Origin: Solibacillus palustris
GTDB lineage: Bacteria > Bacillota > Bacilli > Bacillales_A > Planococcaceae
Direction of reading: 5' to 3'
Assembly: GCF_022549215.1 (NCBI RefSeq)
Contig: NZ_JAKZFC010000008.1
Coordinates: 1 to 64,000 of the forward strand
DNA length: 64,000 nt
Shown in pieces: positions 11,016 through 58,755 of this stretch. A model generated the notes under the pieces. The model was not told where the DNA came from and searched no databases. It saw nothing but the letters and a program-made list of their open reading frames with translations. The translations under genes were made by a program, and so were the position numbers. Position 1 is the stretch's first letter. The number at the start of each line of letters is the position of its first letter.

Positions 11016-11017
11016 GT

Positions 11018-11506: not shown

Positions 11507-11664
11507 CTAATTGGCTATATTTATTTAAACGGACTGTTCAATAGTTTGAAATAGAGTTGGGATTAATTTTATAAATTATTGAAACAATTAGTAGTGTACA
11601 AGCGTACACACATGATAAACTGTTGTCATATTAACTGAATAGGTTTGCTTTAGGAGGAAGAAGA

Positions 11665-12441
11665 TTGAAGAAAAATCTTTGGATAATGCTGTCGCTTGTG
11701 TCAGTTGTATTACTGTTATCAGGTTGTTCAGAGTTTGACCAACCGATTTCTGAAGATAGCGAAGGCTTTTGGAATGAATATATCGTTTGGCCACTAGTAT
11801 CATTCATCAAGCTCTTTGCTGATATGTTTGAAGGCAATGTAGCGCAATATGCATTTGCGATTATTATCGTAACAATTATCATTCGTTTAATTATTTTACC
11901 TTTAACAGTTAAGCAAGTGAAAAGCTCGAAAAAAATGCAAGAAATGCAACCGAAGTTAAAAGAGTTACAAGCTAAATATAGCTCGAAAGACGCGGCTACA
12001 CAACAAAAATACCAGCAAGAAATGATGCAGTTAATGCAAACTTCTGGGGTTAACCCATTAGCTGGATGTTTACCAATCTTTATTCAAATGCCGATTTTAA
12101 TTGGTTTCTATCATGCGATTAGCCGTATGAACGCAACTTCAGCATATGAGTTAGGTTCATTCTTAACAGTTCCATTAGGAGAACCAAGTATAGTATTTGC
12201 TGTTATTGCAGGTCTAATTCAATATGTTGTATTAATGACGGGTCCAGCAGTAGATAACCCGCAAATGAAAATTATGATGTATATCATGCCATTAATGATT
12301 GTTGGTTTCGGTGTTATTGCACCGGCAGCACTTTCATTATACTGGGTAGTCGGAAACATTGTTTCTGTATGTCAAAACCTTGTTATTTATAAACCTTGGA
12401 ATAAAAATAAACCGGATGCTACTGACAAAGGGGCGAAATAA
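11665..12441 (+). CDS. spoIIIJ: Membrane protein insertase YidC/SpoIIIJ
   Basis: YidC/Oxa1-family insertase of the cytoplasmic membrane. In Bacillus the SpoIIIJ paralogue is also needed for forespore development. The 258-residue product has a lipoprotein signal (LVSVVLLLSGC, lipobox LSGC), about five membrane spans, and the cytoplasmic loop VKQVKSSKKMQEMQPKLKEL after the first core span. A TTG start at 11665 follows AGGAGGAAG. The jag start codon follows its stop directly, so the two form an operon. Confidence 0.96.
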   Translation: MKKNLWIMLSLVSVVLLLSGCSEFDQPISEDSEGFWNEYIVWPLVSFIKLFADMFEGNVAQYAFAIIIVTIIIRLIILPLTVKQVKSSKKMQEMQPKLKELQAKYSSKDAATQQKYQQEMMQLMQTSGVNPLAGCLPIFIQMPILIGFYHAISRMNATSAYELGSFLTVPLGEPSIVFAVIAGLIQYVVLMTGPAVDNPQMKIMMYIMPLMIVGFGVIAPAALSLYWVVGNIVSVCQNLVIYKPWNKNKPDATDKGAK

Positions 12442-13200
12442 GTGAAACAAACTACGCAAATAGGCGCAACAGTAGAAGAAGCGATCTCATTAGCGTTACA
12501 AAAGCTTGGCCATAGTCGTGAACAAGTTGATGTGGAAGTTTTACAAGAAGGTAAAAAGGGATTTTTAGGTTTCGGAGCACGCAACGCCGAAGTTCGTGTG
12601 ACGGTAAAAGACATTGTTCAACAACAAGTGAATGAAGCTGTTTTACAAAAGGTGACATCTGTCGAAGAGTTTGTTATTGGTGAACCTGTTGAAGAAGAGC
12701 CAATTTTTGTACAAGATGCGCAACCTATTCACCAAGAACATGCCCAGGTTGACCCAATTGAAGAAGCGAAAAGCTATTTGACGAGCATTGCTTTAGAAAT
12801 GGGCATTACAGATTTATCAATTGAGCATACTTCAGATGGCAAGAACGTGTCATTTAAGTTATCAAGTGAAAAAGCAGCACTATTAATTGGTAAGCGCGGT
12901 CTAACATTGAACGCATTGCAACAATTAACGCAGCTTATTTTAAACAAATCAGCAAAATCGTTTATGATTTTACAAATGGATGTCGAAAATTACCGTGAAC
13001 GCCGTCAAGTCGCATTAGAACAGCTTGCTGCTCGTATGGCTGACAAAGCAATTCGTTCACGAAAACCTGTTGCATTCGAACCAATGGCATCATACGAACG
13101 CAAAATCATTCATAATGCTTTAGCGAATCGTTTAGATATTGAAACGCATTCAGAGGGTACTGAACCGAATCGTTATTTAGTCATTGAACCAGTAAAATAA
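12442..13200 (+). CDS. jag: RNA-binding protein Jag (KhpB)
   Basis: Cytoplasmic RNA-binding protein encoded beside SpoIIIJ. The 252-residue product has an N-terminal Jag_N domain (residues 1-55), a Glu/Pro-rich linker, a KH domain with the signature LIGKRGLTLNALQQLTQ, and a C-terminal R3H domain (YRERRQVALEQLAARMA ... RKIIHNAL). The GTG start abuts the stop of spoIIIJ, with AAAGGGG upstream. A terminator at 13216-13248 ends the pair. The KhpA/KhpB role in RNA regulation is known for other Gram-positives and is inferred here. Confidence 0.95.
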   Translation: MKQTTQIGATVEEAISLALQKLGHSREQVDVEVLQEGKKGFLGFGARNAEVRVTVKDIVQQQVNEAVLQKVTSVEEFVIGEPVEEEPIFVQDAQPIHQEHAQVDPIEEAKSYLTSIALEMGITDLSIEHTSDGKNVSFKLSSEKAALLIGKRGLTLNALQQLTQLILNKSAKSFMILQMDVENYRERRQVALEQLAARMADKAIRSRKPVAFEPMASYERKIIHNALANRLDIETHSEGTEPNRYLVIEPVK

Positions 13201-13215
13201 ACATGTAGACAATAG

Positions 13216-13248
13216 CGACCTATTCTTTTGGGATAGGTCGTTTTTTTC
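13216..13248 (+). terminator. spoIIIJ-jag terminator
   Basis: CGACCTAT / ATAGGTCG stem followed by seven T. Confidence 0.88.
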
Positions 13249-13334
13249 GTAGATGTTTAGATAATCTTCATTACTTTAGATTTTGCTTAAAATATGTTAG
13301 TCTAAATTGTTAGAAAGTATAGCTCGGATGTGAT

Positions 13335-13352
13335 TTATCCACATGTGGATAA
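13335..13352. promoter_or_regulatory. Palindrome of two perfect DnaA boxes before mnmE
   Basis: TTATCCACATGTGGATAA is an exact 18-bp palindrome made of two head-to-head consensus DnaA boxes. It ends 21 bases before the mnmE start codon, so it could place DnaA on the mnmE promoter or leader. Confidence 0.8.
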
Positions 13353-13373
13353 CACTGATATAGGAGGATATAA

Positions 13374-14759
13374 ATGGAATTCGATACGATTGCTGCAATA
13401 TCCACACCAATGGGAGAAGGTGCTATTGCAATTGTCCGTTTAAGTGGCGATGAAGCAGTAGCAATTGCAGATAAAATATTTAAGTCACCAAATAATAAAC
13501 GCTTAACAGAAGTCCCGACACATACAATTCACTACGGACATTTAGTCGATCCAAAAACAGATGAAGTCGTTGAAGAAGTGATGCTGTCATTAATGCGCGG
13601 GCCTAAAACATTTACGCGTGAAGATGTTGTAGAGATTAACTGTCACGGTGGGATTGTGTCAGTAAATCGTGTATTACAGCTTGTGTTACGTTCAGGTGCC
13701 CGTTTAGCAGAGCCAGGGGAATTTACGAAGCGAGCCTTTTTAAATGGCCGTATTGACCTATCACAAGCAGAGGCTGTAATGGACTTAATCCGTGCAAAAA
13801 CAGACCGTGCGATGAATGTGGCATTAAATCAAATGGACGGGAAATTATCTCGGTTAATTACATCACTTCGCCAAGCATTAATCGAAACACTAGCACAAGT
13901 CGAAGTTAATATTGATTATCCAGAATATGATGACGTAGAAGAAATGACGATTCCAGTACTGCAAGAGAAGTGTGGCTGGGTACGTGATGAAATTATTAAA
14001 CTTCTGAAAACATCATCACAAGGTAAAATTTTACGTGAAGGCTTATCGACTGTTATTTTAGGTCGCCCAAATGTAGGGAAATCTTCACTTTTAAATAGTT
14101 TAGTACAAGAAAATAAAGCGATTGTTACTGATATTGCAGGGACAACGCGTGATATCATTGAAGAATATGTAAACGTGCGAGGCGTGCCATTACGTTTAGT
14201 CGATACAGCAGGGATTCGTGAAACCGAAGATATTGTGGAGCGTATCGGCGTAGAACGTTCACGTGAGGCATTAAAAGATGCGGACTTAATTTTACTCGTT
14301 TTAAATTATGGCGAGGAATTAACGGTAGAAGATGAGCGTTTATTTGAAACGATTCAAGCGATGGATTATATCGTTGTTGTTAATAAAACCGATATCGAAC
14401 GTAAAATTGATTTAAACCGTGTCCATGAACTTGCAGGAAAACACCGCGTTGTCACTACTTCATTATTGAAAGAAGAAGGCGTTATTGAGCTTGAAGAAGC
14501 AATTGCTGCATTATTCTTTGAAGGACAAGTGGAGTCACAGGATTTAACCTACGTATCAAATGCACGACATATCGCATTATTACACAAAGCGCAGGCGGTT
14601 ATTGAAGAAGCGTTACAAGCAGCTGAATCAGGTGTACCGGTGGATATGATTCAAATCGACGTAACACGTACATGGGAATTTCTTGGTGAAATTATTGGAG
14701 ATACTGTGCAGGAAAGCTTAATTAATCAGCTGTTCTCACAATTCTGTTTAGGAAAATAA
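13374..14759 (+). CDS. mnmE: tRNA U34 modification GTPase MnmE
   Basis: GTPase that, with MnmG, adds carboxymethylaminomethyl to the wobble uridine of certain tRNAs. It shows the N-terminal tetrahydrofolate-binding domain, then a G domain inserted in a helical domain: G1 [10 protein letters not shown]3 DTAGIRET, G4 NKTD. It ends with the invariant CLGK. The length of 461 residues is normal. GGAGG precedes the ATG, and mnmG follows 43 bases on. Confidence 0.98.
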
Positions 14760-14802
14760 AAAAAGTGCTTAACAAGCAGAAATTCAGAAAGGAAGAACAT
14801 TC

Positions 14803-16698
14803 ATGTCAACACAATATGAAGCAGGTAACTATGATGTAATTGTTGTTGGTTCAGGTCATGCCGGAGTTGAAGCTGCTTATGCCGCAGCAAAAACTGGCGC
14901 AAAAACATTAATGCTTACAATCAACTTAGAATTAATCGCGTTTATGCCTTGTAATCCATCAGTCGGCGGTCCTGCAAAAGGGATTGTTGTCCGTGAAATT
15001 GATGCATTAGGCGGTTTAATGGGACGCGTAATCGATAAAACACATATTCAAATGCGTATGCTTAATACAGCAAAAGGTCCCGCAGTTCGTGCATTACGCG
15101 CACAAGCGGACAAACAACTATACCAACGAGAAATGAAACGCTTGTTAGAGGAAGAAGAAAATCTTCAAATTCGTCAAGCAATGGTAGAAGAATTAATCAT
15201 TGAGGACAACCAAGTAAAAGGGGTTGTGACACAAGTTGGTGCGATTTATCGTGCAGATGCGGTTGTATTAACAACTGGTACATTTTTACGCGGCGAAATT
15301 ATCATCGGCGACTTAAAATATTCATCAGGCCCAAATAACCAACAACCGTCCATTAAGTTAGCCGATAACTTAAAAGATTTAGGTTTCAATATGGTACGAT
15401 TCAAAACAGGTACACCACCACGCGTAAATAGCCGTACCATTGATTATTCAAAAACGGAAATTCAACCTGGGGATGAAGAACCACGTGCATTCAGCTATGA
15501 AACAACAGAATATATTACAGATCAGCTTCCTTGCTGGTTAACATATACGAGTGAAAATACGCATGACATCATAAATGCGAACCTACACCTTTCGCCAATG
15601 TTCTCGGGAATGATAAAAGGAACAGGTCCGCGTTATTGTCCGTCAATTGAAGATAAAATTACACGCTTTGCCGATAAGCCACGTCACCAAATTTTCCTTG
15701 AACCAGAAGGGCGTGACACGCAAGAAGTTTATGTACAAGGCTTCTCTACGTCTTTACCAGAGCATGTACAACGTCAAATGGTGGCATCCATTCCTGGTTT
15801 AGAAAATGCAGAAATTATGCGTGCAGGTTATGCAATTGAGTACGATGCAGTAGTTCCAACGCAATTATGGCCAACGCTTGAAACAAAAAAGATTCAAGGT
15901 TTATACACAGCAGGTCAATTAAATGGTACATCAGGCTATGAGGAAGCAGCAGGTCAAGGTTTAATGGCTGGTATGAATGCAGGTCTGAAAGTACAGGGCA
16001 AAGAAGAGATTATTCTTTCACGTTCGGACGCTTATATCGGTGTGTTAATTGACGACTTAGTAACAAAAGGTACAAACGAACCTTACCGCCTATTAACATC
16101 GCGTGCGGAATATCGTTTACTATTACGTCATGACAATGCAGATTTACGTTTAACAGATGTTGGACATAAAGTAGGCTTAATTTCAGATGAACGATATGCA
16201 CGCTTTACGAAAAAACGTCAGCAAGTAGAAGACGAAATCACACGTTTACGCGAAATTATCGTGAAACCAAATGCGCAAACACAAGAAACAGTTCGTTCAG
16301 TAGGTGGCGCAGAGTTAAAAGACGGTATTCGTGCATCGGACTTTGTCAAACGTACAGAAATGACATATGACTTAGTAGCAGGTTTAATTGAGCCAACTGA
16401 AGAATCATTAAGTGTAGAAGTACGTGAGCAAGTTGAAATTCATTTAAAATACGAAGGCTATATTCAAAAAGCGCTTCAACAAGTGGAAAAAATGAAAAGA
16501 CTTGAAGATAAGAAAATACCAGAAAACATTGATTACGATGCAATTAGTAGTTTAGCTACAGAAGCCTTACAAAAATTAAAGCAAGTACGCCCGCTATCAA
16601 TCGCACAGGCATCACGTATTGCAGGTGTAAACCCTGCAGATATTTCGATTTTACTTGTCTATATTGAGCAAGGAAAAATTGCAAAAATCACTAACTAA
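14803..16698 (+). CDS. mnmG: tRNA U34 modification FAD enzyme MnmG
   Basis: FAD-dependent partner of MnmE. The 631-residue product has the FAD Rossmann motif [19 protein letters not shown] near residue 13, the [12 protein letters not shown] signature, the [15 protein letters not shown] motif and the [19 protein letters not shown] motif near 370. The C-terminal helical domain binds MnmE. AGAAAGGAAG precedes the ATG. A weak hairpin follows the gene near 16702. Confidence 0.98.
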
Positions 16699-45519: not shown

Positions 45520-45999
45520 GTGAATATTACTATCATTTCTGTCGGTAAATTAAAAGAAAAGTATTTAAAAATGGGTATCGATGAATACGTAAAGCGCTTA
45601 GGGGGCTATGCGAAAATCGATTTAGTCGAAGTGCCAGACGAAAAAGCACCTGAGCAATTAAGTGATGCGGAAATGGAACTTGTAAAGAAAAAAGAAGGCG
45701 AGCGCATTTTAGCTAAAATTAGTGAGGGCACATACGTCATTGCCCTAGCACTTGATGGAAAAATGAAAACAAGTGAAGAAATGGCGACTGATTTAGATGC
45801 GCTCATGACGTATGGGAAGAGCAAGGTGGCATTTATCATAGGCGGCTCACTTGGTCTGCATGATGAGGTCTTTAAACGTGCGGATGAAAAGTTATGTTTC
45901 GGGAAAATGACGCTACCTCACCAGCTGATGAAGCTTGTGTTGGTGGAGCAGATTTACCGTAGTTTTCGGATTATTAAGGGAGAACCGTACCATAAGTAA
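45520..45999 (+). CDS. rlmH: 23S rRNA pseudouridine1915-N3 methyltransferase RlmH
   Basis: SPOUT methyltransferase acting on helix 69 of 23S rRNA in assembled ribosomes. The 159-residue product has [13 protein letters not shown] (SAM knot) and the [28 protein letters not shown] tail. It is orfX, the SCC insertion gene of staphylococci. Its last codons and the bases just after them recur twice downstream (46335, 48523), so the gene end acts as an attachment site. The GTG start has AAAGGTGG upstream. The gene is intact. Confidence 0.98.
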
Positions 46000-46005
46000 G
46001 TGCGG
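45979..46005 (+). repeat. att copy 1 at the rlmH 3' end
   Basis: 27-bp copy GGAGAACCGTACCATAAGTA + AGTGCGG, spanning codons for EPYHK and the stop. It matches the copies at 46335 and 48523 at 24 of 27 positions each. TAAGTGCGGTTT (45997-46008) is the left arm of a perfect 12-bp inverted repeat whose other arm is 46313-46324. Confidence 0.85.
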
Positions 46006-46355
46006 TTTATAAAATTTATAAAAGGTAGCCAATTAATAAAAATATGGCTATCTTTTTTTATGATTAAATTTAATTTATATTGGTAGTAAGGATAGATATC
46101 AATTTAGTGACTTTTTATATAAAATGTACTAATGAATTTAATAAACAATTAATACAGGCGATAGATAATGCTTTTTTAGGTAGTAACTATCCGTACAAAT
46201 TAAAAGATGCAATAAGAAATTTATTTATGAGAGATGCTGTGGTTTATAAAAAAATTGTTGACTCTTTTGAAGAAGAAGATCTGGAAATACCAGAATTATT
46301 AAAGATAGATTAAAACCGCACTTAGCCGCATCGTGGTGAACCGTATCATAAGTAA
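46000..46355 (+). mobile_element. SCC-like unit 1 (356 bp)
   Basis: Interval between att copies 1 and 2, bounded by the 12-bp inverted repeats TAAGTGCGGTTT (45997-46008) and AAACCGCACTTA (46313-46324). The layout, insertion at the rlmH end with direct repeats and terminal inverted repeats of GCGGTTT type, is that of staphylococcal SCC ends. It holds one small ORF and no recombinase, so it is a remnant or a non-autonomous unit. Unit limits are placed at the stop codons and are approximate. Confidence 0.65.
46080..46313 (+). CDS. Hypothetical protein in SCC-like unit 1
   Basis: 77-residue frame, which I do not recognise, from a TTG start (46080) with no clear ribosome binding site. It contains FYIKCTNEFNKQLIQAIDNAF and an acidic C terminus (EEEDLEIPELLKID). 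Its TAA stop falls on the right inverted repeat of the unit. Codon use and acidic/basic balance look protein-like, but expression is unproven. It is the sole candidate gene between att copies 1 and 2. Confidence 0.45.
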   Translation: MVVRIDINLVTFYIKCTNEFNKQLIQAIDNAFLGSNYPYKLKDAIRNLFMRDAVVYKKIVDSFEEEDLEIPELLKID

Positions 46356-46361
46356 GTGAGG
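46335..46361 (+). repeat. att copy 2
   Basis: GGTGAACCGTATCATAAGTA + AGTGAGG; still reads EPYHK-stop with a synonymous TAT. It is preceded by AACCGCACTTAGCC..., and att copy 3 has a similar AACCGCATTTAG lead-in. Confidence 0.85.
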
Positions 46362-48543
46362 TATTCTATGTAAAACAAGGGTAAGAAAAGAATACAGGAG
46401 AAAATCGAAAATGGCAGGTTGGTCTTGATTTTCACTGATATTATCATGTTTATTTTATTATGCCTATAATTGGAGGCTATGTGAATGTTAAGTGATCAGG
46501 CGAGATATTCTAGGCTCGCGAATATAACAAAAATAATAAATACAAAATTAGAGCTACGTGAAGTATTGCAGCGTGTAACAATGGCGATATCAGAGGAGAT
46601 TGTTCAATGCAATGCTGTTGGAATCTATTTACCCCAGGAAGATGGAACATTTAGAGGATTTGCAGGAAAACCAGAGACCATAAATGGCGTAACACTCGAT
46701 ACCCAGGTAATTGATCCTGAAATAGACTTATTGGCAAAAGAAGTTATTGAAACCAAAAAAACCATCTATATCCCTGATACCTCAAAGGATCATCGGCTGG
46801 ATACGAGATCAGTTGATGCGTTCAAAATTAAGTCCTTATTAGTCCTGCCTATCTCATTTGGGCAAGAGTTATTTGGTCTGGTTTTTTTATTTGATTATGG
46901 AGCTCCAATGAACTTAACAGATTCAGAAATTCAAAGTGTTGAAGCTTATGTAAATATGGCTGCGGTCGCAATTCAAAACGCAAATAATTTAACACAAAAG
47001 GAAAACCTTATTGCCGAGAAGCAACTGTTACTAAATGTTACCCGTGATTTATCAATGTGTTCCTCGATACAGGAGAGTTTTGATAAATGTTTTTTTTACT
47101 TAGGACAGATTTTAGAGAGTAAAAACATGGCTGTCCACCTTTTAGACCCGCTAGACAAAACAACGATTAAAACAACGAAGTTAAGCAAGGACTGTGATTG
47201 GACAGAAGCGGATTGGATGGAGAAAAGCTATGAAGCCAAGATCCAAGAGGTTATTCATACAAAAAATATAGATAGTAAGGGTCTACTGATGATTCCATTG
47301 GTTTCAATGGGAGAAGTATTAGGAGTAATCGTCGTTGGCAAAGAGGAAAAAGCTCACAATTACGATAATTCCCAAATTCAACTGGCAAAATCTATCGTTG
47401 ATGCCACAGCTCCTACGTTTTCAAACTTGTTATATATGGATCAACTTGAAAGCATGGTGGAAGAGCGAACGAGAGAACTAGCTGCTGCTAATGAAAAAGT
47501 TACAAGTGTGATTGAAAGTATTACGGATGGATTCTTTACTTTGAATAATAAATGGGAATTTACGTACGTAAATAAGCATCAATATTTTCCACAAAGAAAA
47601 ACGGCAAAAGATGTATTAGGCAAGAATATATGGGGGGTTTTCCCGAGTAGCGTTGACACAGTTATGTATAAGGAATTTCATCGTGCAATGTCAGAGCGAA
47701 CTACAGTTCATTTCGAATTTCTTTCTACCTCTGATGAATATTGGCACGAAGTTATTGCATACCCGTATGATAATGGTATTTGTTGTATTTTTAAAAACAT
47801 AACGGAAAAAAAGCAATATGAGAAGGAATTGAAAAGGTTATCCAACATAGATTTAATAGGGCAAATGGCAGCAGGTATCAGCCATGAGATTAGAAATCCA
47901 ATGACAACAGTACGAGGATTTTTGCAGTTATTAAAAGAAGAGAACACCTATGAGAAAGATAATATGTACTTTAATTTAATGATTGAAGAACTTGACCGTG
48001 CCAATTCTATTATTACTGAATTTCTCTCAACGGGTAATACAAGGAAATCGGATTTGCAGATGTTAGATTTAAATTCAATTATCCACGATATTATTCCTTT
48101 AATAAAGATTGATGCGTATAATCAAAATAAATATATTCAAATCGATACAAATGACATTCCGGAATTACTTTTAAATCGTAATGAGATACGGCAATTATTA
48201 ATAAACCTATACCGTAATGGCTTAGAAGCGATGAGCACAGGGAAAGTTCTAACCATTAGCACCTACAAGGAAGGTCAAAATTGTGTGGTACTTGCAGTGC
48301 GGGATCAAGGAAAAGGTATCAGGCCTGAAGTATTAGAGAAACTGGGTACTCCATTTTACACAACCAAAGATAATGGAACGGGATTGGGGCTAGGCGTATG
48401 TTATGCCATTGCTGCCCGTCATAATGCAAAAATAGAAATTCAAACAGGATCGGAAGGCACTATCTTTTTAGTTAAATTTAATTATGAAAATAATGAACAA
48501 TAACCGCATTTAGATTAGTTGTGGTGAACCGTATCATAAGTAA
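46356..48543 (+). mobile_element. SCC-like unit 2 (2.2 kb, histidine kinase)
   Basis: Interval between att copies 2 and 3. The left end TAAGTGAGGTATT and the right end AATAACCGCATTTA (48500-48513) form an imperfect inverted repeat. The only gene is the histidine kinase, whose TAA stop lies in the right repeat, as does the stop of the unit 1 gene in its own right repeat. No recombinase gene is present. Confidence 0.6.
46485..48503 (+). CDS. Cytoplasmic GAF-PAS sensor histidine kinase
   Basis: 672-residue kinase with no membrane segment or signal. Order: two GAF domains (about 15-165 and 180-320), a coiled coil (MDQLESMVEERTRELAAANEK), a PAS domain (about 345-440), HisKA with GISHEIRNPMTTVRGFLQLL (phospho-His), and HATPase (N box LLINLYRNGLEAM, G1 VRDQGKGI, G2 GTGLGLGVCYAI). 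The HEIRNPMTTVRGFLQLL box is of the sporulation-kinase (KinA/KinD-like) type, so it could feed the Spo0A phosphorelay; that is an inference. No response regulator is adjacent. GGAGG lies eight bases before the ATG. It is the only gene between att copies 2 and 3. Confidence 0.9.
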   Translation: MLSDQARYSRLANITKIINTKLELREVLQRVTMAISEEIVQCNAVGIYLPQEDGTFRGFAGKPETINGVTLDTQVIDPEIDLLAKEVIETKKTIYIPDTSKDHRLDTRSVDAFKIKSLLVLPISFGQELFGLVFLFDYGAPMNLTDSEIQSVEAYVNMAAVAIQNANNLTQKENLIAEKQLLLNVTRDLSMCSSIQESFDKCFFYLGQILESKNMAVHLLDPLDKTTIKTTKLSKDCDWTEADWMEKSYEAKIQEVIHTKNIDSKGLLMIPLVSMGEVLGVIVVGKEEKAHNYDNSQIQLAKSIVDATAPTFSNLLYMDQLESMVEERTRELAAANEKVTSVIESITDGFFTLNNKWEFTYVNKHQYFPQRKTAKDVLGKNIWGVFPSSVDTVMYKEFHRAMSERTTVHFEFLSTSDEYWHEVIAYPYDNGICCIFKNITEKKQYEKELKRLSNIDLIGQMAAGISHEIRNPMTTVRGFLQLLKEENTYEKDNMYFNLMIEELDRANSIITEFLSTGNTRKSDLQMLDLNSIIHDIIPLIKIDAYNQNKYIQIDTNDIPELLLNRNEIRQLLINLYRNGLEAMSTGKVLTISTYKEGQNCVVLAVRDQGKGIRPEVLEKLGTPFYTTKDNGTGLGLGVCYAIAARHNAKIEIQTGSEGTIFLVKFNYENNEQ

Positions 48544-48549
48544 GTGCAG
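48523..48549 (+). repeat. att copy 3
   Basis: GGTGAACCGTATCATAAGTA + AGTGCAG; differs from copy 2 at two positions. It marks the start of the following accessory segment, for which I found no right-hand copy in the window. Confidence 0.85.
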
Positions 48550-48648
48550 TGTTTGAAAAGACCGAATTAAAAACACAATATTGGAGAAAACACATGGGAA
48601 ATCTCAATACTATTCACATATCTCGCGCCCCATAAGGATTCTAAAATA

Positions 48649-48687
48649 GAAATAGCATCATTCGATAATAATCGAATGATGCTATTT
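48649..48687 (-). terminator. pbuE terminator
   Basis: AATAGCATCATTCGAT / ATCGAATGATGCTATT, a perfect 16-bp stem just past the pbuE stop, with a T-rich flank on the minus strand. Confidence 0.8.
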
Positions 48688-48691
48688 AAAA

Positions 48692-49888
48692 TCATATATT
48701 TGAATGTTGAACATCCGAAGCTGTCGTTTTATATTCTCCTCTTACATTCGTTTTTCTTGTTAAAGAAAAGACTGCACATGCTAAGGCAATGAGAACAAGG
48801 CACCCCCCATACCAAGCTGCATGTGAGATAGTATTTGTTTGATTTAAAACAATACCCCCAAATCCAGATCCCATGGAAATACCGATTTGTAATGCTGAAT
48901 TGTTAAAGCTTTGCTGAATATCCGATGTAGCAGAATCTGTTTGAATTAGATAGCTTTGTTGTGGTGGAGATAGACTCCAGCTTAATGCTCCCCAAATCAT
49001 CATTACCGGTATAAATACAATGAGTGAGAAGGTAGTGAATGGCAGCAGGAACAGCACAATAGCAAATGAGATTATGACAATAAGGATACTTTTAGGAGCG
49101 CCAATCGTATCTGAAAGTGTTCCCCCAAATGCACCCCCACTTACCGCTGCAATACCAAATAAAAGATAACAAAGGCTAATCCAATAAGAATTCAGATGAA
49201 GTTCCGTTTCCAAAAATGGAGTGAAATACGCATAGATCGTATAATGTCCTGCCAGCATAAACATGGTAGCAAGATGTGCACTCCCGATTTTTAAGCTGGC
49301 AACGGCCTTTAATTGTTGTGAAAGTGGAATTGTCACTTCTCCAGGAATTCGCTCCAAAAAGATGGAAATCAGGATAAAGGAGCCTACTGATAGAATTGCA
49401 ATTCCAAGAAAAATTACCCGCCAACCAAAATTTTCGGAAATGAGAATACCTAGTGGCACACCAAGGACAAGTGATGAACTAATTCCCATGTAAATGAGTC
49501 CTAGAGCCTTTGCTCGATGGTCTGGTGAAACAACTTTTGCTGCTATTGTTAAGGATAGCACCACGATAAGTGCTGTACTCATAGCACTTAAAACCCGGGC
49601 AATCATCATAAAGGTAAAATCTGGACTGAAATAAGTTATGATATTACTGATGAAAAAAATAAACAAGGAAATAAGGTATAACTTTTTTCGTTCAATTTTG
49701 CTCGTTAAAACTAATAACACTGGACCGGAAATCGCAAAAATAAGTGCGAAGACTGTAATCAGCTGTCCAGCAGAGCTTAATGAGATATTCATATCTGTTG
49801 CGATAATTGGAAGTATACCGCCAACGATCAATTCTACCAAACCAACGGCAACAGTTGATAATGCTAGTATAAAAACTTTGAAATTCAT
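48692..49888 (-). CDS. pbuE: Purine efflux pump PbuE (MFS)
   Basis: Twelve-span major facilitator transporter that exports purine bases and nucleosides. The 398-residue product closely follows Bacillus subtilis PbuE from its first residues ([20 protein letters not shown], then [10 protein letters not shown] and [20 protein letters not shown]) to [10 protein letters not shown]...[15 protein letters not shown]. The adenine riboswitch directly upstream supports the substrate. The gene runs against replication, inside the accessory region. A poor ribosome binding site (GAGAGG 14 bases upstream) is the only doubt on the start. Confidence 0.95.
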
Positions 49889-49929
49889 AATCTGCTATAC
49901 ATCCTCTCTGATGAAAAAATTAGAAAATA

Positions 49930-50031
49930 AAAAAAATCCTGATTACAAAAAATGAATAGTTCATTTTCTGTAATCAGGATTTTAAGGTTCCTGGTAGAGA
50001 CCCTCAAGCCGTATTCTTGAGGTTATACAGT
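49930..50031 (-). promoter_or_regulatory. Adenine riboswitch of pbuE
   Basis: On the minus strand the aptamer (50031-49968) shows P1 CTGTA / TACAG, P2 CCTCAAG / CTTGAGG, P3 AGGAACC paired with its partner, and the conserved TCTACC and CCTTAAAA junction bases. The key base in GATTAC is U, as in adenine-sensing members (C in guanine ones). The 3' part CCTGATTACAG also forms the 5' arm of a strong terminator (49980-49930) with CTGTAATCAGG and a long T run. Adenine binding should therefore stop termination, an ON switch as in Bacillus subtilis pbuE. Confidence 0.93.
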
Positions 50032-50064
50032 AATATTTATGTGTAATAAGCGAGCACGTTGAAT

Positions 50065-50093
50065 AGTTTACTAGCTTTCATTTGAATTATCAA
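50065..50093 (-). promoter_or_regulatory. pbuE promoter
   Basis: Minus strand: -35 TTGATA (50093-50088), 17-base spacer, -10 TAAACT (50070-50065), about 30 bases before the aptamer. Confidence 0.65.
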
Positions 50094-50208
50094 GTGTTTA
50101 ATTTTAGTTTTAATATTACCAATTGGCAAAAAAACAAGTTGTACTTCCAATGTTTATGAAACAAGAGAGGGATGACAGGCACTACGCTAGGCGGATGGGG
50201 GAATATAA

Positions 50209-52184: not shown

Positions 52185-52257
52185 GGAATCCAAACCAATT
52201 ATACCATTGTTGTTTCAGATCCGTTAAAAAAATTAAATTCACGAACGCTTACAGCAA

Positions 52258-52305
52258 AAAAGTGTTAGATCGACATCAGTCAATCTAACACTTTTTTCTA
52301 TTTTG
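52258..52305 (+). terminator. Terminator after agmatine deiminase
   Basis: AAAAAAGTGTTAGAT / ATCTAACACTTTTTT stem, active in principle in either direction. Confidence 0.85.
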
Positions 52306-52419
52306 TCCCAGCCTCGTTGCAAGTGAACGGAACGAGCGCAACAAGCGCGGTCGTGAAGAACGTAGCGCTAACAGTAGGAGCAAACCCTCGTCGTTTCCGT
52401 AACTTCGAGTGGAGATAAA

Positions 52420-52716
52420 GTGGATACAGTACTAACCGGGTATACGCTAAAAGCGATGGAGAATAAGTAGGCCATCCAGACGCCTAACGGCAACTACAAG
52501 CTTCCTGCTACGGATGTATTGTTCGATCAATTATCCAAACAGCTTGGAGCGTGATGGAAAGTATTACACTACGTCAATAACATGACGAAAAGCGCGTACT
52601 CGCTAATTTGGCACCCGGTGACATTCTCGGACGTGGATAGACATCGGTCTAAACACGCGGTGAACGATTTGATGTCACTGTTCGTGATCAATGGCATCAA
52701 TGCAATAGATTGCTAG
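52420..52716 (+). pseudogene. Decayed gene of unknown family
   Basis: One frame holds 99 codons from GTG (52420, GGAG upstream) with internal stops at 52468 and 52552. The pieces read VDTVLTGYTLKAMENK, AIQTPNGNYKLPATDVLFDQ and WKVLHYVNNMTKSAYSLIWH. Codon use is richer in G and C than the neighbours, which points to foreign origin. I do not recognise the family. Confidence 0.4.
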
Positions 52717-52804
52717 TTAGCTTGCTATATCAGGGCATATTTGCCAATTTCCAGCTGCGAAAATAGAGTTAAAGATGCTTCTAGGTATTCATTGGTAAAA
52801 TATA

Positions 52805-52838
52805 TGATATTGACTATCATTCTCAATGGTGATAAGAT
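52805..52838 (+). promoter_or_regulatory. Fur box over the promoter of the uptake operon
   Basis: TGATATTGACTATCA (52805-52819) matches the 7-1-7 Fur consensus TGATAAT-N-ATTATCA at all but two defined positions. It covers a -35 TTGACT (52810-52815) that is 17 bases from -10 TAAGAT (52833-52838). This predicts repression by Fur in iron-replete cells. Confidence 0.75.
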
Positions 52839-52994
52839 TCTTTTTGTTTAAAAGGGTAGAAAATGAAGTAACCGAAGAATGCAGAATAAGATTATGGGCC
52901 CCTTTTATGATCAGATTTATCGGATCGGCCATAGGGTTGTGATCGTATGGGATTATTTTTGCAGAACAATAAACTATTAGGAGTAATAACAAAC

Positions 52995-54110
52995 ATGATT
53001 AAATCAAAATTTTTAATGGGTAGTACAGTAGGTATTATGGCATTAGGTTTAGTTGGCTGCCAAACCTCAGATAACAGCCAAAAGGAAAAGGAAAGTGCAA
53101 AAGTCAGTGAACCTGTAACTATCGTTGATGGTAGAGATAAAGAAGTTGTTCTTGAGAATGGATATGCCAAAAATTTCGTAATGTTTCCAGCCGAGGGATC
53201 TGAAATGCTTTCCATTACACAATCCGCTAAACCATATTTAGGCATGGTAAAAGAAGATCAAGAAAATAATATTAAAGGCGATGTCGTTGCAAAAAAATAT
53301 CCGGGAATTCTAGATGTGAATTCTGACATCATGCATGGTGATTGGTCAAAGCCAAATGTTGAAAGTATTTTAAATTTGGACCCTGATGTTGTTTATCAAT
53401 GGAATTTTGGAGAAGAAGGAATTAAACCACTAGAAAATGCTGGCATTGATGTTGTAGCTGTAAACTGGGGTACATATGCTGACGATATTGAAAGATATAC
53501 TTTGTACGGTGAAGCTCTAGGAAAGCAAGATCGAGTAGATGAGGTATTTGCACACCAAGAGAAATCTAAACAAGCCGTTCTTAAAGTAACTGAAAGCCTA
53601 ACAGAAGATGAGCGACAAAATCATGTATTTATAGGCAATGTGGCTGAAAATAAAATCACAACATGGGGAACAGAACTCCCTCACACTGCTGTACATAAGG
53701 TAGATAACCTTACCTATACACTTGGAAAATTTGATACACCAGATGCTGAGATCAATGTAGAAACACTGCTAGAATGGGATCCTGATATGATCGTTATTGG
53801 CGATTTCCTAAAAGATATCACTCCCGAATATTTCTATAACCATCCTGTTCTTAAAAACCTAACAGCTGTTAAAGAAAAAAGAGTGTACAAAGCCCCTACA
53901 GCATCTCAACTAGATAATCCAGGAATTACTTGGTATTTCTATGCTTTCTTAGCGACTCCAGAGAAGTTCAAGGATTTTAGTATGCGCGAACAGGTTCGTG
54001 AAGATTATAAACTGTTGTACAATATCGATGTAACTGAGGAAGAAATTGATCAAATTCTAAATGTTGAAGAAAACAAAAACAGCAAATACTTCGACAACTT
54101 TATGCAATAA
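52995..54110 (+). CDS. ABC transporter substrate-binding lipoprotein (siderophore type)
   Basis: 371-residue lipoprotein with signal MIKSKFLMGSTVGIMALGLVGC (lipobox LVGC), then a two-lobe binding protein of the FecB/FepB (TroA-like) class: EPVTIVDGRDKEVVLENGYAKNF, SILNLDPDVVYQW and LLEWDPDMIVIG are typical strands. Start ATG at 52995 follows AGGAG at 11 bases. The Fur box upstream and the FecCD permease downstream support iron-complex uptake. The actual ligand is unknown. First gene of a five-gene operon. Confidence 0.9.
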   Translation: MIKSKFLMGSTVGIMALGLVGCQTSDNSQKEKESAKVSEPVTIVDGRDKEVVLENGYAKNFVMFPAEGSEMLSITQSAKPYLGMVKEDQENNIKGDVVAKKYPGILDVNSDIMHGDWSKPNVESILNLDPDVVYQWNFGEEGIKPLENAGIDVVAVNWGTYADDIERYTLYGEALGKQDRVDEVFAHQEKSKQAVLKVTESLTEDERQNHVFIGNVAENKITTWGTELPHTAVHKVDNLTYTLGKFDTPDAEINVETLLEWDPDMIVIGDFLKDITPEYFYNHPVLKNLTAVKEKRVYKAPTASQLDNPGITWYFYAFLATPEKFKDFSMREQVREDYKLLYNIDVTEEEIDQILNVEENKNSKYFDNFMQ

Positions 54111-54122
54111 GGAGAGGTTTTG

Positions 54123-55136
54123 ATGGTAACAGCAAGACAGAGGAAGCTTAAGACCTTTTACGTATTATCCTCTCTTTCCTTAATTATTTTAATGGTGGCA
54201 GCGATTTGTATCGGAAGATACACAATCGCCCCGCTAGATGTTTTCCATTCAATCTTTAACCCAGATTCAATTTCAGACCCGAAGCTTTCAGTAGTCGTAC
54301 ACGAAATTAGAATACCTCGCGTACTGTTAGCAGTGGTTGTAGGAGCCGGTATTGCTGTTGCTGGGGCTGCTTTGCAGGCTACTTTTGGTAATCCGCTCGT
54401 AAGTGAACATATTTTGGGCGTATCATCGGGAGCAAGCTTCGGTGCAGCTCTTGGCATAATAACAATTGGAACAACGCTTGGTACGCAGTTTTTGGCCGTG
54501 CTCTTTGCATTTGCAGGGATGTACCTCACGTATAGCATCGCAAAAAGACGTGGGCGTCTCACTGTGCTTATGCTCGTTCTTTCGGGAATTATTACTAGCG
54601 CATTATTCGACTCTGGCGTCTCCATATTAAAGTATTTGGCCGATTCCAAAAATGAACTTCCTGCTATCACCTTTTGGCTTATGGGCTCACTTGCTGGACC
54701 TTCGAAGGAAACCATTATTAGAACAATGCCTAGTATTTTGATTTCTTTATTTGTCCTCTATAAATACAGATGGCATCTAAATCTTCTTTCACTAGATGAA
54801 GATGAAGCGATTTCGTTGGGCGTAAATGTAAAAAAAATGCGTGTTATTATCATATTCTTCACAACAGTCATTGTGGCGTCAATTGTATCTATTGCTGGTA
54901 TTATTAGCTTTGTTGGGCTAATTGTACCGCATTTTACACGGATGATCGTCGGAACAGACAATAAGCATTTAGTGCCAGCAGCTATGATTATGGGCGCTAT
55001 ATTTATGCTAATTACAGATACACTCGCAAGATCCCTAACAGCAGCGGAAATTCCATTATCTATTATAAGCTCGCTTCTCGGTGTACCATTCTTTATTTAT
55101 CTTCTTAGAAGAACAGGAGGTGTGTGGGATGATTAG
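54123..55136 (+). CDS. FecCD-family ABC permease
   Basis: 337-residue membrane permease with about ten spans, of the BtuC/FecCD family that moves iron complexes or cobalamin. Family features: RIPRVLLAVVVGAGIAVAGAALQATFGNPLVSEHILGVSSGASFGAALG, GIISFVGLIVPHFTRMIVGTD (the ATPase-coupling loop) and GVPFFIYLLRR at the end. It is the only permease gene, so the channel would be a homodimer. ATG at 54123 chosen for the GGAG spacing. It overlaps the ATPase gene by 8 bases. Confidence 0.94.
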   Translation: MVTARQRKLKTFYVLSSLSLIILMVAAICIGRYTIAPLDVFHSIFNPDSISDPKLSVVVHEIRIPRVLLAVVVGAGIAVAGAALQATFGNPLVSEHILGVSSGASFGAALGIITIGTTLGTQFLAVLFAFAGMYLTYSIAKRRGRLTVLMLVLSGIITSALFDSGVSILKYLADSKNELPAITFWLMGSLAGPSKETIIRTMPSILISLFVLYKYRWHLNLLSLDEDEAISLGVNVKKMRVIIIFFTTVIVASIVSIAGIISFVGLIVPHFTRMIVGTDNKHLVPAAMIMGAIFMLITDTLARSLTAAEIPLSIISSLLGVPFFIYLLRRTGGVWDD

Positions 55137-55920
55137 AGTTGAAAATCTTAACTTTCAATATCCCAACTCAGAAAGACAGATATTTAAAGATTTATCCTTT
55201 AACGTAAAAAAGGGTGAAACATTAGCCATCTTAGGAGCAAATGGGATTGGAAAGACAACCTTTGTAAAATGCTTATTAGGATTTTTAGAATACAAATCAG
55301 GAAATATTTTAATTAATGATAAATCTGTTAAACAAATGTCTGCAAGTGAGTATTGGAAACTTGTAGCCTATGTGCCACAATCTAAAAAGTCGGCGTTTGG
55401 ATTTACTGGGCTTGAAATGACTGTTATGGGTTTATCTCCTCATGTGAGAATGGGCAGGCTTCCTAAAAAAGAGGATTACGAGAGAGCCTATGAACAATTA
55501 AGAAAGCTTGGTATTGAGCATTTAAGTGAACAAAATTGCAATAAGATGAGTGGCGGTGAGCTACAAATGGTTTTAATTGCAAGAGCCCTTATCAAGAATC
55601 CTAAAATACTCATAATGGATGAACCAGAATCCCATCTTGACTTGAGAAACCAACTAAAAATATTGAATATTGTCGAAGAGTTAAATCAGCAAGGGGAATA
55701 TTCTATTATCATAAATACCCATTTCCCACATCATGCCTTTCGTATAGCAAACTCGACTTTGCTTTTAGGTAAAGAAGGGTACATTTTCGATGAAACTGAA
55801 AAAGTAGTGAATACCGATAATTTACGAAATTATTTTGGTATTAATTCTGAAATTTTATCGTATGAACAAGCAGAGAAATCCTATTCAACAATATTGCCAA
55901 TAGACTTGCATAAATATTAA
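55129..55920 (+). CDS. ABC transporter ATPase (FecE-like)
   Basis: 263-residue nucleotide-binding subunit. Walker A GANGIGKTT near residue 37, Q loop YVPQSKKSAFG, signature MSGGELQMVLIARAL, Walker B ILIMDEPESHLD, H loop NTHFPHH. A longer frame begins upstream inside the permease, but AGGAGGTG precedes the ATG at 55129. It energises the preceding permease. The next gene follows 18 bases after the stop. Confidence 0.95.
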   Translation: MIRVENLNFQYPNSERQIFKDLSFNVKKGETLAILGANGIGKTTFVKCLLGFLEYKSGNILINDKSVKQMSASEYWKLVAYVPQSKKSAFGFTGLEMTVMGLSPHVRMGRLPKKEDYERAYEQLRKLGIEHLSEQNCNKMSGGELQMVLIARALIKNPKILIMDEPESHLDLRNQLKILNIVEELNQQGEYSIIINTHFPHHAFRIANSTLLLGKEGYIFDETEKVVNTDNLRNYFGINSEILSYEQAEKSYSTILPIDLHKY

Positions 55921-55938
55921 CAATGAAAAGGTGTAAAA

Positions 55939-57249
55939 ATGAAAAAAATCGCTTATGTTACAACAGGAACAAGTGCGCAGTTAATCAGCTATTGGGATTA
56001 CGCTCATTACATGGATCAATTAATTTATGCTGATGACCTTCCTAACTTTAATCTAGCAGAATTCGATGCAGTCATTCTTTCTTGTCATGGTCATAGTGAC
56101 CGCATATTGCCACACAAAAAACAACTTAACGAATATGTTAGAAATGGTGGCTTTCTTTTAATTTTTGCACTTAACAATGTTGATAAGCTTTTAGATGTTG
56201 TAGATATAGAATGGGTCGATTCAAAAATAAAGGATTGGTTATGGTGGACTAAGCCAGGTGGTAAAATAGAGCTATATGTTCCAGATAATATTAATCATTC
56301 CTTTTTTGATTATGTAAAGCCTGAGAATTTACGTTGGCACTGGCATGGATCATTCAAAGGAAATCACAACGGTACTACATTGCTCGGGATAGAAGATACT
56401 GATGAGTCCGTTATCGTTGATTTTGACAATTTAGAAGGTGGCGGTAGAGTGTTTATCACAACGCTAGACCCTCATAGTCATAATGGACAACGATTTATGC
56501 CAGCAGCAATGAAACTACTTCAAGAATTTTACCCATGGATTCATAACGAGCTTGGTATTGATCGAAATCAGATTAATCCGTTTAAAGTGGCTTATTTGCA
56601 AACAACATCGTTTGACTCTGAGAATAAGCCTTCCTATTTAGCGAAAACCTTTGAAGGCACAGGTGGACAAATCGAATACTATGGCGTTCGTCCTATTCCG
56701 GATGAGGTTTGGGATTGTGATATCATCTATTACCCTGGTCTTGGTGACAATATCTATATGCAGCGATACTCGGATAGAATGATGGAATATGTCAAGAATG
56801 GTGGACAACTCATATTAAATATAGAAGTAGCTATATGCTGGCTGCCATTTTTAAAGCCATTCCAAACGGTACCGCCAACTCCTTATACGAATCTCAAGGT
56901 AAGAATAGAAAATGATCCATTTGAATTTTTTAAGAATATGCCAGATGACTTTGATGGGTGGAGCGGCATACTAGGGCAGTATTCAAGAGGATTTACGCAA
57001 TTGCCTGAAAATGCTATAGGTCTTACATCCATAGGGGCTGAAAATGCAAAAAACTCAGCAGATTACATATGGCAGTACCCTACATTAGATGGAAGTGGTG
57101 GAAAGGTGTTCGTGCATAACGGTGATAATATGGTGCGATATCCTGATCACGGTGAGCATAAAGAATGCCTTGTTCGTGATATTTGTGTAGGTCTTATGAA
57201 ATATCGCAGAGCAGTTGTACCTTTTGCTGGGGTGCAAGTGAAAGAATGA
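55939..57249 (+). CDS. His-rich GATase-like protein A of the uptake operon
   Basis: I do not recognise a named family. The 436-residue soluble protein appears to contain two related Rossmann-type, ThuA/class-I-amidotransferase-like halves: residues 4-76 (AYVTTGTSAQ ... FDAVILSCHGHSDR ... YVRNGGFLLIF) and 217-295 (AYLQTTSF ... CDIIYYPGLGDN ... YVKNGGQLILNI). Only the first half keeps Cys49-His50-x-His52 at the nucleophile-like turn. Further His clusters: WHWHG (134-136), NHNG (143), DPHSHNG (179-181) and DHGEHKEC (404-410). This suggests a metal site or hydrolase. Its place behind a Fur-regulated ABC operon points to handling the imported ligand. GAAAAGG precedes the ATG. The next gene is a close paralogue. 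Confidence 0.8.
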   Translation: MKKIAYVTTGTSAQLISYWDYAHYMDQLIYADDLPNFNLAEFDAVILSCHGHSDRILPHKKQLNEYVRNGGFLLIFALNNVDKLLDVVDIEWVDSKIKDWLWWTKPGGKIELYVPDNINHSFFDYVKPENLRWHWHGSFKGNHNGTTLLGIEDTDESVIVDFDNLEGGGRVFITTLDPHSHNGQRFMPAAMKLLQEFYPWIHNELGIDRNQINPFKVAYLQTTSFDSENKPSYLAKTFEGTGGQIEYYGVRPIPDEVWDCDIIYYPGLGDNIYMQRYSDRMMEYVKNGGQLILNIEVAICWLPFLKPFQTVPPTPYTNLKVRIENDPFEFFKNMPDDFDGWSGILGQYSRGFTQLPENAIGLTSIGAENAKNSADYIWQYPTLDGSGGKVFVHNGDNMVRYPDHGEHKECLVRDICVGLMKYRRAVVPFAGVQVKE

Positions 57250-57267
57250 AATTATTAGGAGACAAAG

Positions 57268-58575
57268 ATGAAAAAAATAGCTTATGTTACAACCGGAACA
57301 AGTGCACAGCTGATCAGCTATTGGGATTTTGCTCATCATATGGATCAATTCATATATGTGGAGGACCTGTCTAACTTTAATTTAGAAGAATTTGGTGCAG
57401 TCATTATTTCTTGTCATAGTCACAGTGACCGCATTCTGCTTCACAAAAAGCAGCTTAATGATTATGTTAGAAATGGCGGATTTCTACTCATCTTTGCACT
57501 TGATAAAGCTGATCAGCTATTAGACGTTGTAGATATAGAGTGGGTTGATTGTAACACTAAGGATTGGCTATGGTGGACGAGACCAGAACGTAAAATAGAA
57601 CTATATGTTCCCGATCATGAAAACCACTCCTTATTTGAATATGTGAAACCTGAGCATTTACATTGGCACTGGCATGGTGCATACAAGGGGAATCATAACG
57701 GGACTACATTGCTTTCGATAGAAGATACTCATGATTCCGTTGTCATTGATTTTAAGGATTTAGAAGGCGGGGGTAGAGTTTTTATCACAACACTTGACCC
57801 TCATAGTCATAACGGTCAACGATTTATGCCAACAACAACTAAATTCCTTCAAGGGTTTTATCCATGGCTTAATAACGAGCTTGGAATTGATCGAAATCAG
57901 ATACAACCATTTAAAGTGGGTTATTTACAAGCAACAGGGACAGATTCTGTGGATACTCCCCCGTATTTAGCGAAAACGTTTGAAGGTACAAGCGGACAAA
58001 TCGAATACTATGGAATCCATCCTATTCCAGATGAGGTTTGGGACTGTGATATCATCTATATCCCTGGTCATTGCGATCAAATATATATGCAACAACAATC
58101 GGATAGACTAATGGATTATGTTAAAAATGGCGGACAACTCATATTAAATATAGAGGTTGCTGTATGCGTGCTTCCAATTTTAAAACCATCCCAAACGGTA
58201 CCGCCTGTTCCCTATACGAATCTCAAGATAAGAGTAGAGAACGATCCCTTTGAATTTTTCAAGAATATGCCAGAAGACTTTGATGGCTGGGAAGGAATAC
58301 TCGGGACGTATGCAAGAGGATTTACTGCATTACCTGAACATGCTTTAGGTCTTACATCTATAGGGGCTGAACATGCAAAATACTTCGCCGATTATATATG
58401 GCAGTATCCTACAATAGATGGGAGTGGCGGCAAGGTCCTCGTGCATAACGGTGGCGATTTGATACGATATCCTGATCACGGCGAGCATAAAGAATGCCTA
58501 CTTCGCGATATTTGTGTCGGTCTTATGAAATACCGCAGAGCCGTTGTGCCTTTTGCCGGGGTACAAGCACCTTAG
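57268..58575 (+). CDS. His-rich GATase-like protein B (tandem paralogue)
   Basis: 435 residues, very similar to the preceding protein over the whole length (I judge well over two thirds identical by eye). It has the same two-half layout, with Cys-His at IISCHSHSDR, WHWHG, NHNG, DPHSHNGQRFMP and DHGEHKEC retained. Differences cluster in the linker at 220-232 and in residues 263-272 (IPGHCDQIY against YPGLGDNIY), so the two copies may differ in specificity. LSIEDTHDS replaces LGIEDTDES. The start ATG follows TAGGAG, 18 bases after copy A. This is a recent tandem duplication kept in frame, and it closes the operon. No function is proposed beyond that of copy A. Confidence 0.8.
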   Translation: MKKIAYVTTGTSAQLISYWDFAHHMDQFIYVEDLSNFNLEEFGAVIISCHSHSDRILLHKKQLNDYVRNGGFLLIFALDKADQLLDVVDIEWVDCNTKDWLWWTRPERKIELYVPDHENHSLFEYVKPEHLHWHWHGAYKGNHNGTTLLSIEDTHDSVVIDFKDLEGGGRVFITTLDPHSHNGQRFMPTTTKFLQGFYPWLNNELGIDRNQIQPFKVGYLQATGTDSVDTPPYLAKTFEGTSGQIEYYGIHPIPDEVWDCDIIYIPGHCDQIYMQQQSDRLMDYVKNGGQLILNIEVAVCVLPILKPSQTVPPVPYTNLKIRVENDPFEFFKNMPEDFDGWEGILGTYARGFTALPEHALGLTSIGAEHAKYFADYIWQYPTIDGSGGKVLVHNGGDLIRYPDHGEHKECLLRDICVGLMKYRRAVVPFAGVQAP

Positions 58576-58755
58576 TGAAATGTTCTCAGAAATGTGTCCG
58601 TATGTGCCAGCGACGATCGCTTTCCTAAATTTAATAGGGAATCGGTCGTTTATCTTTTTATGGGAAAGAGTTATATTCTCTCACCTTATTTTCAATTACC
58701 ATGCTTTTACTTAGCTGGACCTCTGTGTTGATGAAGAGGTCCAGCTAGCTTAAGG

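Follow-up and report, generated by a model that had tools for sequence, protein, structure and literature searches.

In the genome of Solibacillus palustris analysed here (G000), the 3' end of rlmH is followed by further copies of itself, and the DNA between these copies forms small units with the ends of mobile cassettes. The window, a 64-kb stretch, corresponds to contig C41 of this genome, which is 99.98% complete in 42 contigs. We read it as the part nearest to rlmH of an array whose cassettes are small, non-autonomous and of the staphylococcal cassette chromosome (SCC) type, and on which a recombinase of the CcrB type (cassette chromosome recombinase, Ccr) would act in trans, and we put the probability of this reading at roughly 85%. 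SCC elements are recognised by integration at the 3' end of rlmH (orfX), direct and inverted repeats with a TATCATAA core, a ccr gene complex of their own and precise excision by Ccr. The two units of the window are inserted at the 3' end of rlmH and are bounded by direct repeats with the TATCATAA core (attachment site (att) copy 1 reads TACCATAA) and by inverted repeats at both ends. They carry no ccr complex of their own and so are not SCC in the strict sense; an att-bounded unit at rlmH without ccr corresponds to what is called a pseudo-SCC or a part of a composite.

The three copies of the rlmH end lie at 45979-46005, 46335-46361 and 48523-48549. Over 27 bp, copy 1 is identical to copies 2 and 3 at 24 positions each, copies 2 and 3 agree at 25, and every copy encodes EPYHK followed by a stop codon. 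With up to three mismatches allowed, the window contains the 21-mer GAACCGTAYCATAAGTAAGTG exactly three times, compared with no occurrence in any of 100 dinucleotide shuffles; a chance origin of the repeats is excluded. An att position weight matrix (PWM) gave 70.4, 68.8 and 38.3 at the three sites and −17.0 at the next best plus-strand place in the window, but its training sites came from regions that were later scored, copies 2 and 3 included, so that the scores of those regions, these two copies among them, are not independent. An initial annotation of this DNA, made from the letters alone, had placed the repeats and counted their identities correctly to the base, and had also seen the EPYHK-stop in each copy, the perfect 12-bp inverted repeat around the first interval (TAAGTGCGGTTT and AAACCGCACTTA) and the imperfect one around the second (GTAAGTGAGGTATT and ATAACCGCATTTAG). 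The coordinates of all features are collected in Table 1.

Unit 1 has an empty counterpart: in G001, a genome of the same species, rlmH passes straight into unit 2 with a clean junction. No match to unit 1 was found elsewhere among the fetched Solibacillus regions. Its only candidate gene, an orphan open reading frame (ORF), matched nothing but itself among 5.8 billion proteins and had no Shine-Dalgarno sequence that a script could find, and for these reasons it is taken as a putative gene only, and unit 1 is not accepted as a one-gene cassette. The earlier description of two one-gene units thus holds for unit 2, with its histidine kinase gene, and not for unit 1.

Unit 2 recurs in another genus. 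At rlmH of Lysinibacillus xylanilyticus SR-86 (locus L123) a copy lies between two att sites and aligns over 2186 of 2188 bp with 97.5% identity, compared with a background of 78.8% for rlmH itself and of 75.6% for the 1.5 kb upstream of it. The 300 bp to the right of this copy reached 62.9% in a forced global alignment made without a random control, and similarity there is not evident. Unit 2 is also present at rlmH of G001 (97.4%), where the right half of its right att has been replaced by other DNA.

Other cassettes have travelled in a similar way, to judge from their identities. The 485-bp cassette B, from an array at a secondary locus of G000 (the C1 array), is 97.7% identical over 485 of 485 bp to a cassette at rlmH of L. 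xylanilyticus DSM 23493, the rlmH background being 76.5%. An 8.1-kb element carrying Ccr is 100% identical between G010, where it lies at rlmH (L089), and G013, where it occupies a secondary locus (L112); it ends at att cores, and the background is 79.7%. The G013 copy is interrupted by about 2.4 kb that look by eye like an IS66-type insertion. G009 and G012 share, at 99.8% identity over a background of 81.3%, 2.2 kb of DNA that begin at the att crossover, and a unit of 911-927 bp is nearly full length at three loci. Related cassettes, designated A, B and C, lie at different positions and loci, and their homology stops at att. Paired cassettes were 78.5-100% identical inside, and outside them the alignments were short or random-like. 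Two cautions apply: pair D was given an arbitrary right end, and to the right of C in G000 and G008 identity was 69.7% over 122 columns, with a random maximum of 70.5. By these sequence comparisons both units of the window behave as mobile cassettes, and transfer between species and genera is shown.

The window is one instance of a wider arrangement. In 16 Solibacillus genomes we found 98 att-like sites with at most one mismatch, rlmH copies included, compared with 8 for a reversed-pattern control; since the control was not empty, isolated sites at a distance from arrays may in a few cases be due to chance. G000 itself has 5 sites on the forward and 9 on the reverse strand, and none with the reversed control. 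Arrays of att sites on the same strand occur at rlmH and at other loci: the C1 array of G000 has 9 sites over 23.7 kb, and G001 has 9 behind the same gene. In the fetched Solibacillus regions there are 60 intervals, the shortest of 76 bp and the longest of 23 kb, with a median of 2.0 kb; 38 are shorter than 3 kb, 45 fall between 0.36 and 4.1 kb, and 4 contain a Ccr-type recombinase. Among 80 named rlmH loci, the best 80 of 394, extra att sites downstream numbered 70 on the same strand and 1 on the opposite strand, and upstream there were none on either strand. They were present in 39 of the 80 loci (10 loci span less than 9.8 kb downstream), and in 40 the rlmH copy stood alone. The named cassettes were taken from 78 of these loci, L116 and L118, which are G003 and G002, being left out; their 69 intervals have a median of 2188 bp, and 45 are below 3 kb. 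The comparison of the DNA downstream of rlmH in relatives, which had been proposed as a check, yielded variable content, single-copy sites and an empty site for unit 1.

At least one att-like site, rlmH's own counted, is present in 255 of 261 genomes of the family. With a wider pattern, the highest counts in a class sample of 398 genomes were 18 (G592) and 16 (G553), both in another family, f3. The initial annotation, limited to one window, could not show this scale: several places on the chromosome carry arrays, and so do genomes of other families in the class. In G592 (C7:44804-150381, L208-L213) 17 att-like sites on the same strand extend over 105 kb, the first of them in rlmH, with two main types of arm. 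No Ccr match and no opposite-strand site were found in the 120 kb covered there; PF07508 matches lie on two contigs other than that of the array.

Each cassette would extend from the middle of one att core, between GAACCGTATC and ATAAGTAAG, to the middle of the next, the crossover base being placed there provisionally. The left end has the form ATAAGTAAGTGCGGTTT and the right end the form AAACCGCACTTA...GAACCGTATC. The left arm is TAAGTGCGGTTT; the right arm, AAACCGCACTTA, is followed after about 8 bases by ACGG. Left and right arms of one cassette match each other with a mean of 9.52, compared with 8.96 (standard deviation 0.15) after shuffling, a value of 9.52 being reached in none of 500 shuffles, whereas arms that face each other across one att match less well (9.11, n = 37). 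On the plus strand, 19 of 58 cassettes had a terminator-like hairpin within the first 120 bp tested, compared with 10 of 290 inner stretches. The enrichment was weaker on the minus strand (12 of 58 left ends, 28 of 290 inner stretches), and right ends had hairpins in 5 and 4 of 58. This test took the 58 of 60 cassettes longer than 400 bp, a filter that unit 1 does not pass. The Ccr elements of G009, G010/G013 and G014 carry the arms AAGGGTAAAA and GAGGCAAAA, unlike most small cassettes; the rlmH-proximal stretch of G013, with a third type of Ccr, starts with the common GTGCGGTTTT.

A Pfam scan covered 40 of 59 ORFs (at least 80 aa, from cassettes of 300-1700 bp). The cargo comprises GGDEF, Fic, EamA, HepT with nucleotidyltransferase, major facilitator superfamily (MFS), AraC-GyrI and MerR proteins, as well as methyltransferases, RlaP, RhuM, nitroreductase and diphthamide synthase; 10 of the 40 proteins had no Pfam match. 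Cassette B (449-485 bp; L096 in the C1 array of G000, L146:10462-10947 and L086) has no convincing protein. About 100 bp of it are strongly conserved; on the minus strand this stretch ends, by eye, in a terminator-like hairpin, and it is also present outside recognised cassettes in other Solibacillus genomes. We read it as a putative small RNA gene on the minus strand. An Rfam identity was rejected, as there was no match at the gathering score and only unrelated ones below it.

The order of cassettes suggests a polarity. In the C1 arrays the first cassettes differ (485 bp in G000; 927 and 541 bp in G001) and are followed by common units about 98% identical, with one 3.3-kb unit of G001 only partly matched in G000. 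At rlmH of G000 unit 1 precedes unit 2. An MFS segment with one and the same left end lies directly behind rlmH in G006, behind a Fic unit in G004, behind a Ccr element in G014 and, in G010, behind a toxin-antitoxin-like unit as well as a Ccr element; no right att of this segment was found in G006 and G004. The first interval at rlmH holds Ccr in G009, G010, G014 and, in family f3, G553, and among the 8 named loci with Ccr there are 6 in which it starts no more than 60 bp from the end of rlmH. Insertion may therefore tend towards the rlmH-proximal site, as in integrons, although this is a pattern and not a measurement. The C1 array lies behind a gene encoding about 345 aa. G008 and G012 lack the 29-kb stretch, the same flanks being 68 and 76 bp apart in them; G015 and G013 have other DNA there.

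No recombinase gene was found in units 1 and 2, and the search of G000 for ccr homologues that had been suggested as a check gave no PF07508 match in the genome and, with a Ccr query, a single weak match (a 221-aa frame, E 3.1e-4, 24% identity). There was likewise no Ccr match in G001, G003, G005, G006 and G007. Ccr relatives (NCBIfam SCCmet_CcrB, E 1e-65 to 1e-121) are present in G009, G010, G013 and G014, and all five recombinases (one each from G009, G013 and G014, two from G010) have NF047343 (CcrB) as best match, with 221.7-405.1 bits. In sister genomes such recombinases are often found next to rlmH, at the site that the small units share. Among the 80 named loci, 8 have Ccr relatives downstream of rlmH, and 35 of the 39 loci with several att sites have none in the stretch. 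From this distribution we infer mobilisation in trans. The earlier suggestion that the recombinase was lost or acts in trans fits a genome without Ccr whose Ccr-less units are intact elsewhere, the step in trans being the conjectural part. A Ccr of G000 could also be hidden by an assembly gap or have been lost with a plasmid; a plasmid search with the Ccr protein was not used, all the matches listed being below 60% identity.

Where a CcrB-like gene lies next to rlmH (L021, L022 and L023, which are G009, G010 and G014; six named loci), it lies at the left end of its element, is convergent with rlmH and reads through att. Its last residues (NNSETAVNLLY-like) are encoded by the antisense strand of rlmH, and the C-terminus is different at the secondary site of G013; the insertion site thus sets the C-terminus of the recombinase. 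Clusters of PF07508 matches were also noted. G004:C13:708679-736677 (L206, L207) has 12 in 28 kb, several in open frames of 1100-1240 aa, behind genes that by eye resemble phage tail and amidase genes, and G237:C2:1382575-1398443, in a second genus, has 8 in 16 kb in similar frames.

In the arrangement that we propose, a cassette consists of its arms, a terminator-like hairpin at the left end in about one-third of cases, and a cargo of one gene or a few, replaced in one case by a putative small RNA gene; nearly all of the small cassettes lack a recombinase. An autonomous SCC-like element would bring in a large serine recombinase of the CcrB type, which would excise and insert cassettes in trans, probably by way of a circular intermediate. 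Arrays would thereby grow with all cassettes in the same orientation, and often at the end nearest to rlmH.

Several points weigh against this proposal. Excision and circles are deduced from sequence, and neither has been observed. All five recombinases stay far below the 900-bit equivalog cut-off of NF047343 and are relatives rather than equivalogs, and because G000 is without Ccr, the mobility seen in the window may be a fossil. Proximal gain is not strict: a 913-bp cassette of G000 sits inside the C1 array between units that are adjacent in G001. Its simple relocation between the C1 arrays of G000 and G001 was rejected, because it is 91.4% identical between the two genomes, compared with 97.6-98.0% for the other shared cassettes; independent acquisition fits better. 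Relatives that have the gene of about 345 aa without the array, the flanks of G008 and G012 included, show no att core behind it; the first att thus has no counterpart in them, and the seeding of secondary arrays is unexplained. In the distant family f3 the match between arms is weak, being reached in 72 of 2000 shuffles; the arm types tabulated for it (CAAGTT and CGAAAT) were picked after inspection of the data. Long intervals exist as well, 14 of the 60 exceeding 4.1 kb and reaching 23 kb, and are probably composites. Finally, weak sites (PWM above 8) were accepted as interval ends, so that a few intervals may be false; a check on random sequence gave one score of 19.6 in 3.9 Mb.

The units might instead spread by homologous recombination or transformation between arrays of true att sites, with no need for a recombinase today. 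The five Ccr-less genomes and the weak short match of G000 agree with this, and common att cores together with neighbouring cassettes would offer homology. Nevertheless, related units occur at different loci without clear homology outside att, the pair C in G000 and G008 being a borderline case with a right flank at the edge of the random range, and about 20 bp of att core offer little length for homologous exchange. We regard this as an unlikely account of the whole, and it could operate alongside Ccr-mediated capture. Somewhat less probable still is decay, in which tandem large SCC-like islands would have lost ccr and most of their cargo by deletion, as pseudo-SCC, leaving short intervals between old att sites. 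Broken att sites such as the one in G001 do exist, long intervals and Ccr-bearing elements share arrays with short ones, and composites and pseudo-SCC are known in staphylococci (PMC10061031). Against this stand the same short units with both ends, the 2188-bp and 485-bp units each in two genera and the unit of 911-927 bp at three loci, since independent deletions are not expected to yield equal lengths in different contexts; arms also match within cassettes. That the repeats are merely a conserved rlmH-linked motif of some other function, such as a regulatory repeat, has next to no chance: the rlmH copy stands alone in half of the named loci, content is variable, arrays lie away from rlmH, and a motif without variable content is rejected by the empty site in G001 and the inter-genus copies.

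The usual picture of SCC is that of an island which brings its own recombinase. Composite and pseudo-SCC elements included, it shares with the arrays described here the rlmH 3' end, the TATCATAA core, direct repeats with flanking inverted repeats, tandem insertion and Ccr-type recombinases in related elements. The arrays differ in the predominance of short intervals and the rarity of Ccr within them, in a cargo of one or a few ordinary genes or a small-RNA-like gene, in reaching 9 att sites at a secondary locus and 17 behind rlmH in a distant family, and in hosts that are not staphylococci. Integrons use the tyrosine integrase IntI with attI and attC. Integron arrays are alike in layout, with small units having one recombination site, one orientation, a tendency to proximal gain and a recombinase acting in trans. 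Here, by contrast, the chemistry would be that of a serine rather than a tyrosine recombinase, the sites derive from rlmH, some left ends have hairpins, and the recombinase travels on a cassette-like element.

The empty site, the variable content, the same-length unit 2 in another genus and the Ccr relatives at the site all bear out the SCC-like interpretation given in the initial annotation. Its claim that no such system is described outside Staphylococcus-like genera was wrong (PMC6222049, PMC10061031, PMC10581047), and genera with such elements are enumerated in PMC10581047. For the Enterococcus cassette chromosome (ECC), the rlmH site, circularisation and transfer are reported, with att repeats of about 50 bp having the same TATCATAA motif; these islands carry ccrAB, the transferred one being 32 kb long, unlike the ccr-less units of the window (PMC6222049). 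SCC-like islands of Bacillus and other Bacillota have rlmH-end repeats, tandem composites, empty sites and large serine recombinases; they carry Pol-SSB, helicase and recombinase genes, whereas the text available treats neither small cassettes free of a recombinase nor arrays at sites other than rlmH (PMC10061031). The ccrDE islands in rimL also place an SCC-related recombinase at a non-rlmH site, but at another site, with other direct repeats and on an island with its own ccr genes (PMC10581047).

Among the matches listed from open-licence PMC papers we recognised no description of arrays, at rlmH and at secondary loci, of cassettes that lack a recombinase and often hold one gene. What looks new is the organisation, that is, recombinase-free and often one-gene cassettes (one with a putative small RNA) in integron-like arrays, with Ccr in trans. 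Very small units without a recombinase, shared by genera of non-staphylococcal spore-formers, appear to use att sites of the SCC kind. We lean, by a little, towards the wider view that Bacilli hold, on the chromosome, a counterpart of the integron built on serine recombinases, in which rlmH and a few secondary loci would capture recombinase-free cassettes with protein or small RNA genes, visiting SCC-like elements would provide Ccr in trans, arrays would grow to the 17 att sites over 105 kb seen without a recombinase found, and SCCmec would be one large autonomous member. If so, rlmH would be a general gene-capture platform in Bacilli, which would suggest how SCC elements assemble and gain cargo, and the integron-like system would be open to direct test with the Ccr genes of sister strains.

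Table 1. Features of the rlmH region and of the DNA downstream of it in the 64-kb window
Feature	Position	Strand	Basis or remark
rlmH, 3' end = attachment site	45520..45999	+	PF02590, E 1.7e-56, sole match in the G000 genome
att copy 1, attL-like (rlmH end and left end of unit 1)	45982..46002	+	Repeat and inverted-repeat comparison
Unit 1, 356-bp cassette, putative crossover to crossover (after GAACCGTAYC)	45992..46347	+	Absent from conspecific G001, clean junction
Left inverted repeat of unit 1, TAAGTGCGGTTT	45997..46008	+	Perfect 12-bp inverted repeat search
Terminator-like hairpin, GGTAGCCA/TGGCTATC and T run, left end of unit 1	46024..46059	+	Read by eye
77-aa orphan ORF in unit 1, coding status uncertain	46080..46313	+	No Pfam family
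Right inverted repeat of unit 1, AAACCGCACTTA	46313..46324	+	Perfect 12-bp inverted repeat search
att copy 2 (right end of unit 1 and left end of unit 2)	46338..46358	+	Repeat search, PWM
Unit 2, 2188-bp cassette	46348..48535	+	Copies at other rlmH loci
GAF-PAS-HisKA-HATPase histidine kinase, 672 aa, sole long ORF of unit 2	46485..48503	+	Pfam; PAS_4 under its curated cut-off
att copy 3 (right end of unit 2 and left end of next segment)	48526..48546	+	Repeat search, PWM
Start of third segment, MFS transporter on minus strand	48536..50131	.	Begins at att copy 3
DNA 95.3% identical to part of an att-to-att interval of G007 (7403-15074 of that region)	52244..58680	.	Alignment

Beyond copy 3 the PWM scan detected no right att for the third segment in the window. 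Over 1.5 kb, positions 48623-50131 match a portion of the third G007 interval at 97.9% identity, compared with 80.1% between the rlmH genes of G007 and the window. The second stretch shared with G007 has no att at its ends in the window. A 6.2-kb region at 52200-58446 is cleanly absent from the same-species G001, with no att at the breakpoints; its genes look, by eye, like those of an iron-siderophore importer of the ATP-binding cassette type, together with a tandem pair of 435-436-aa proteins.

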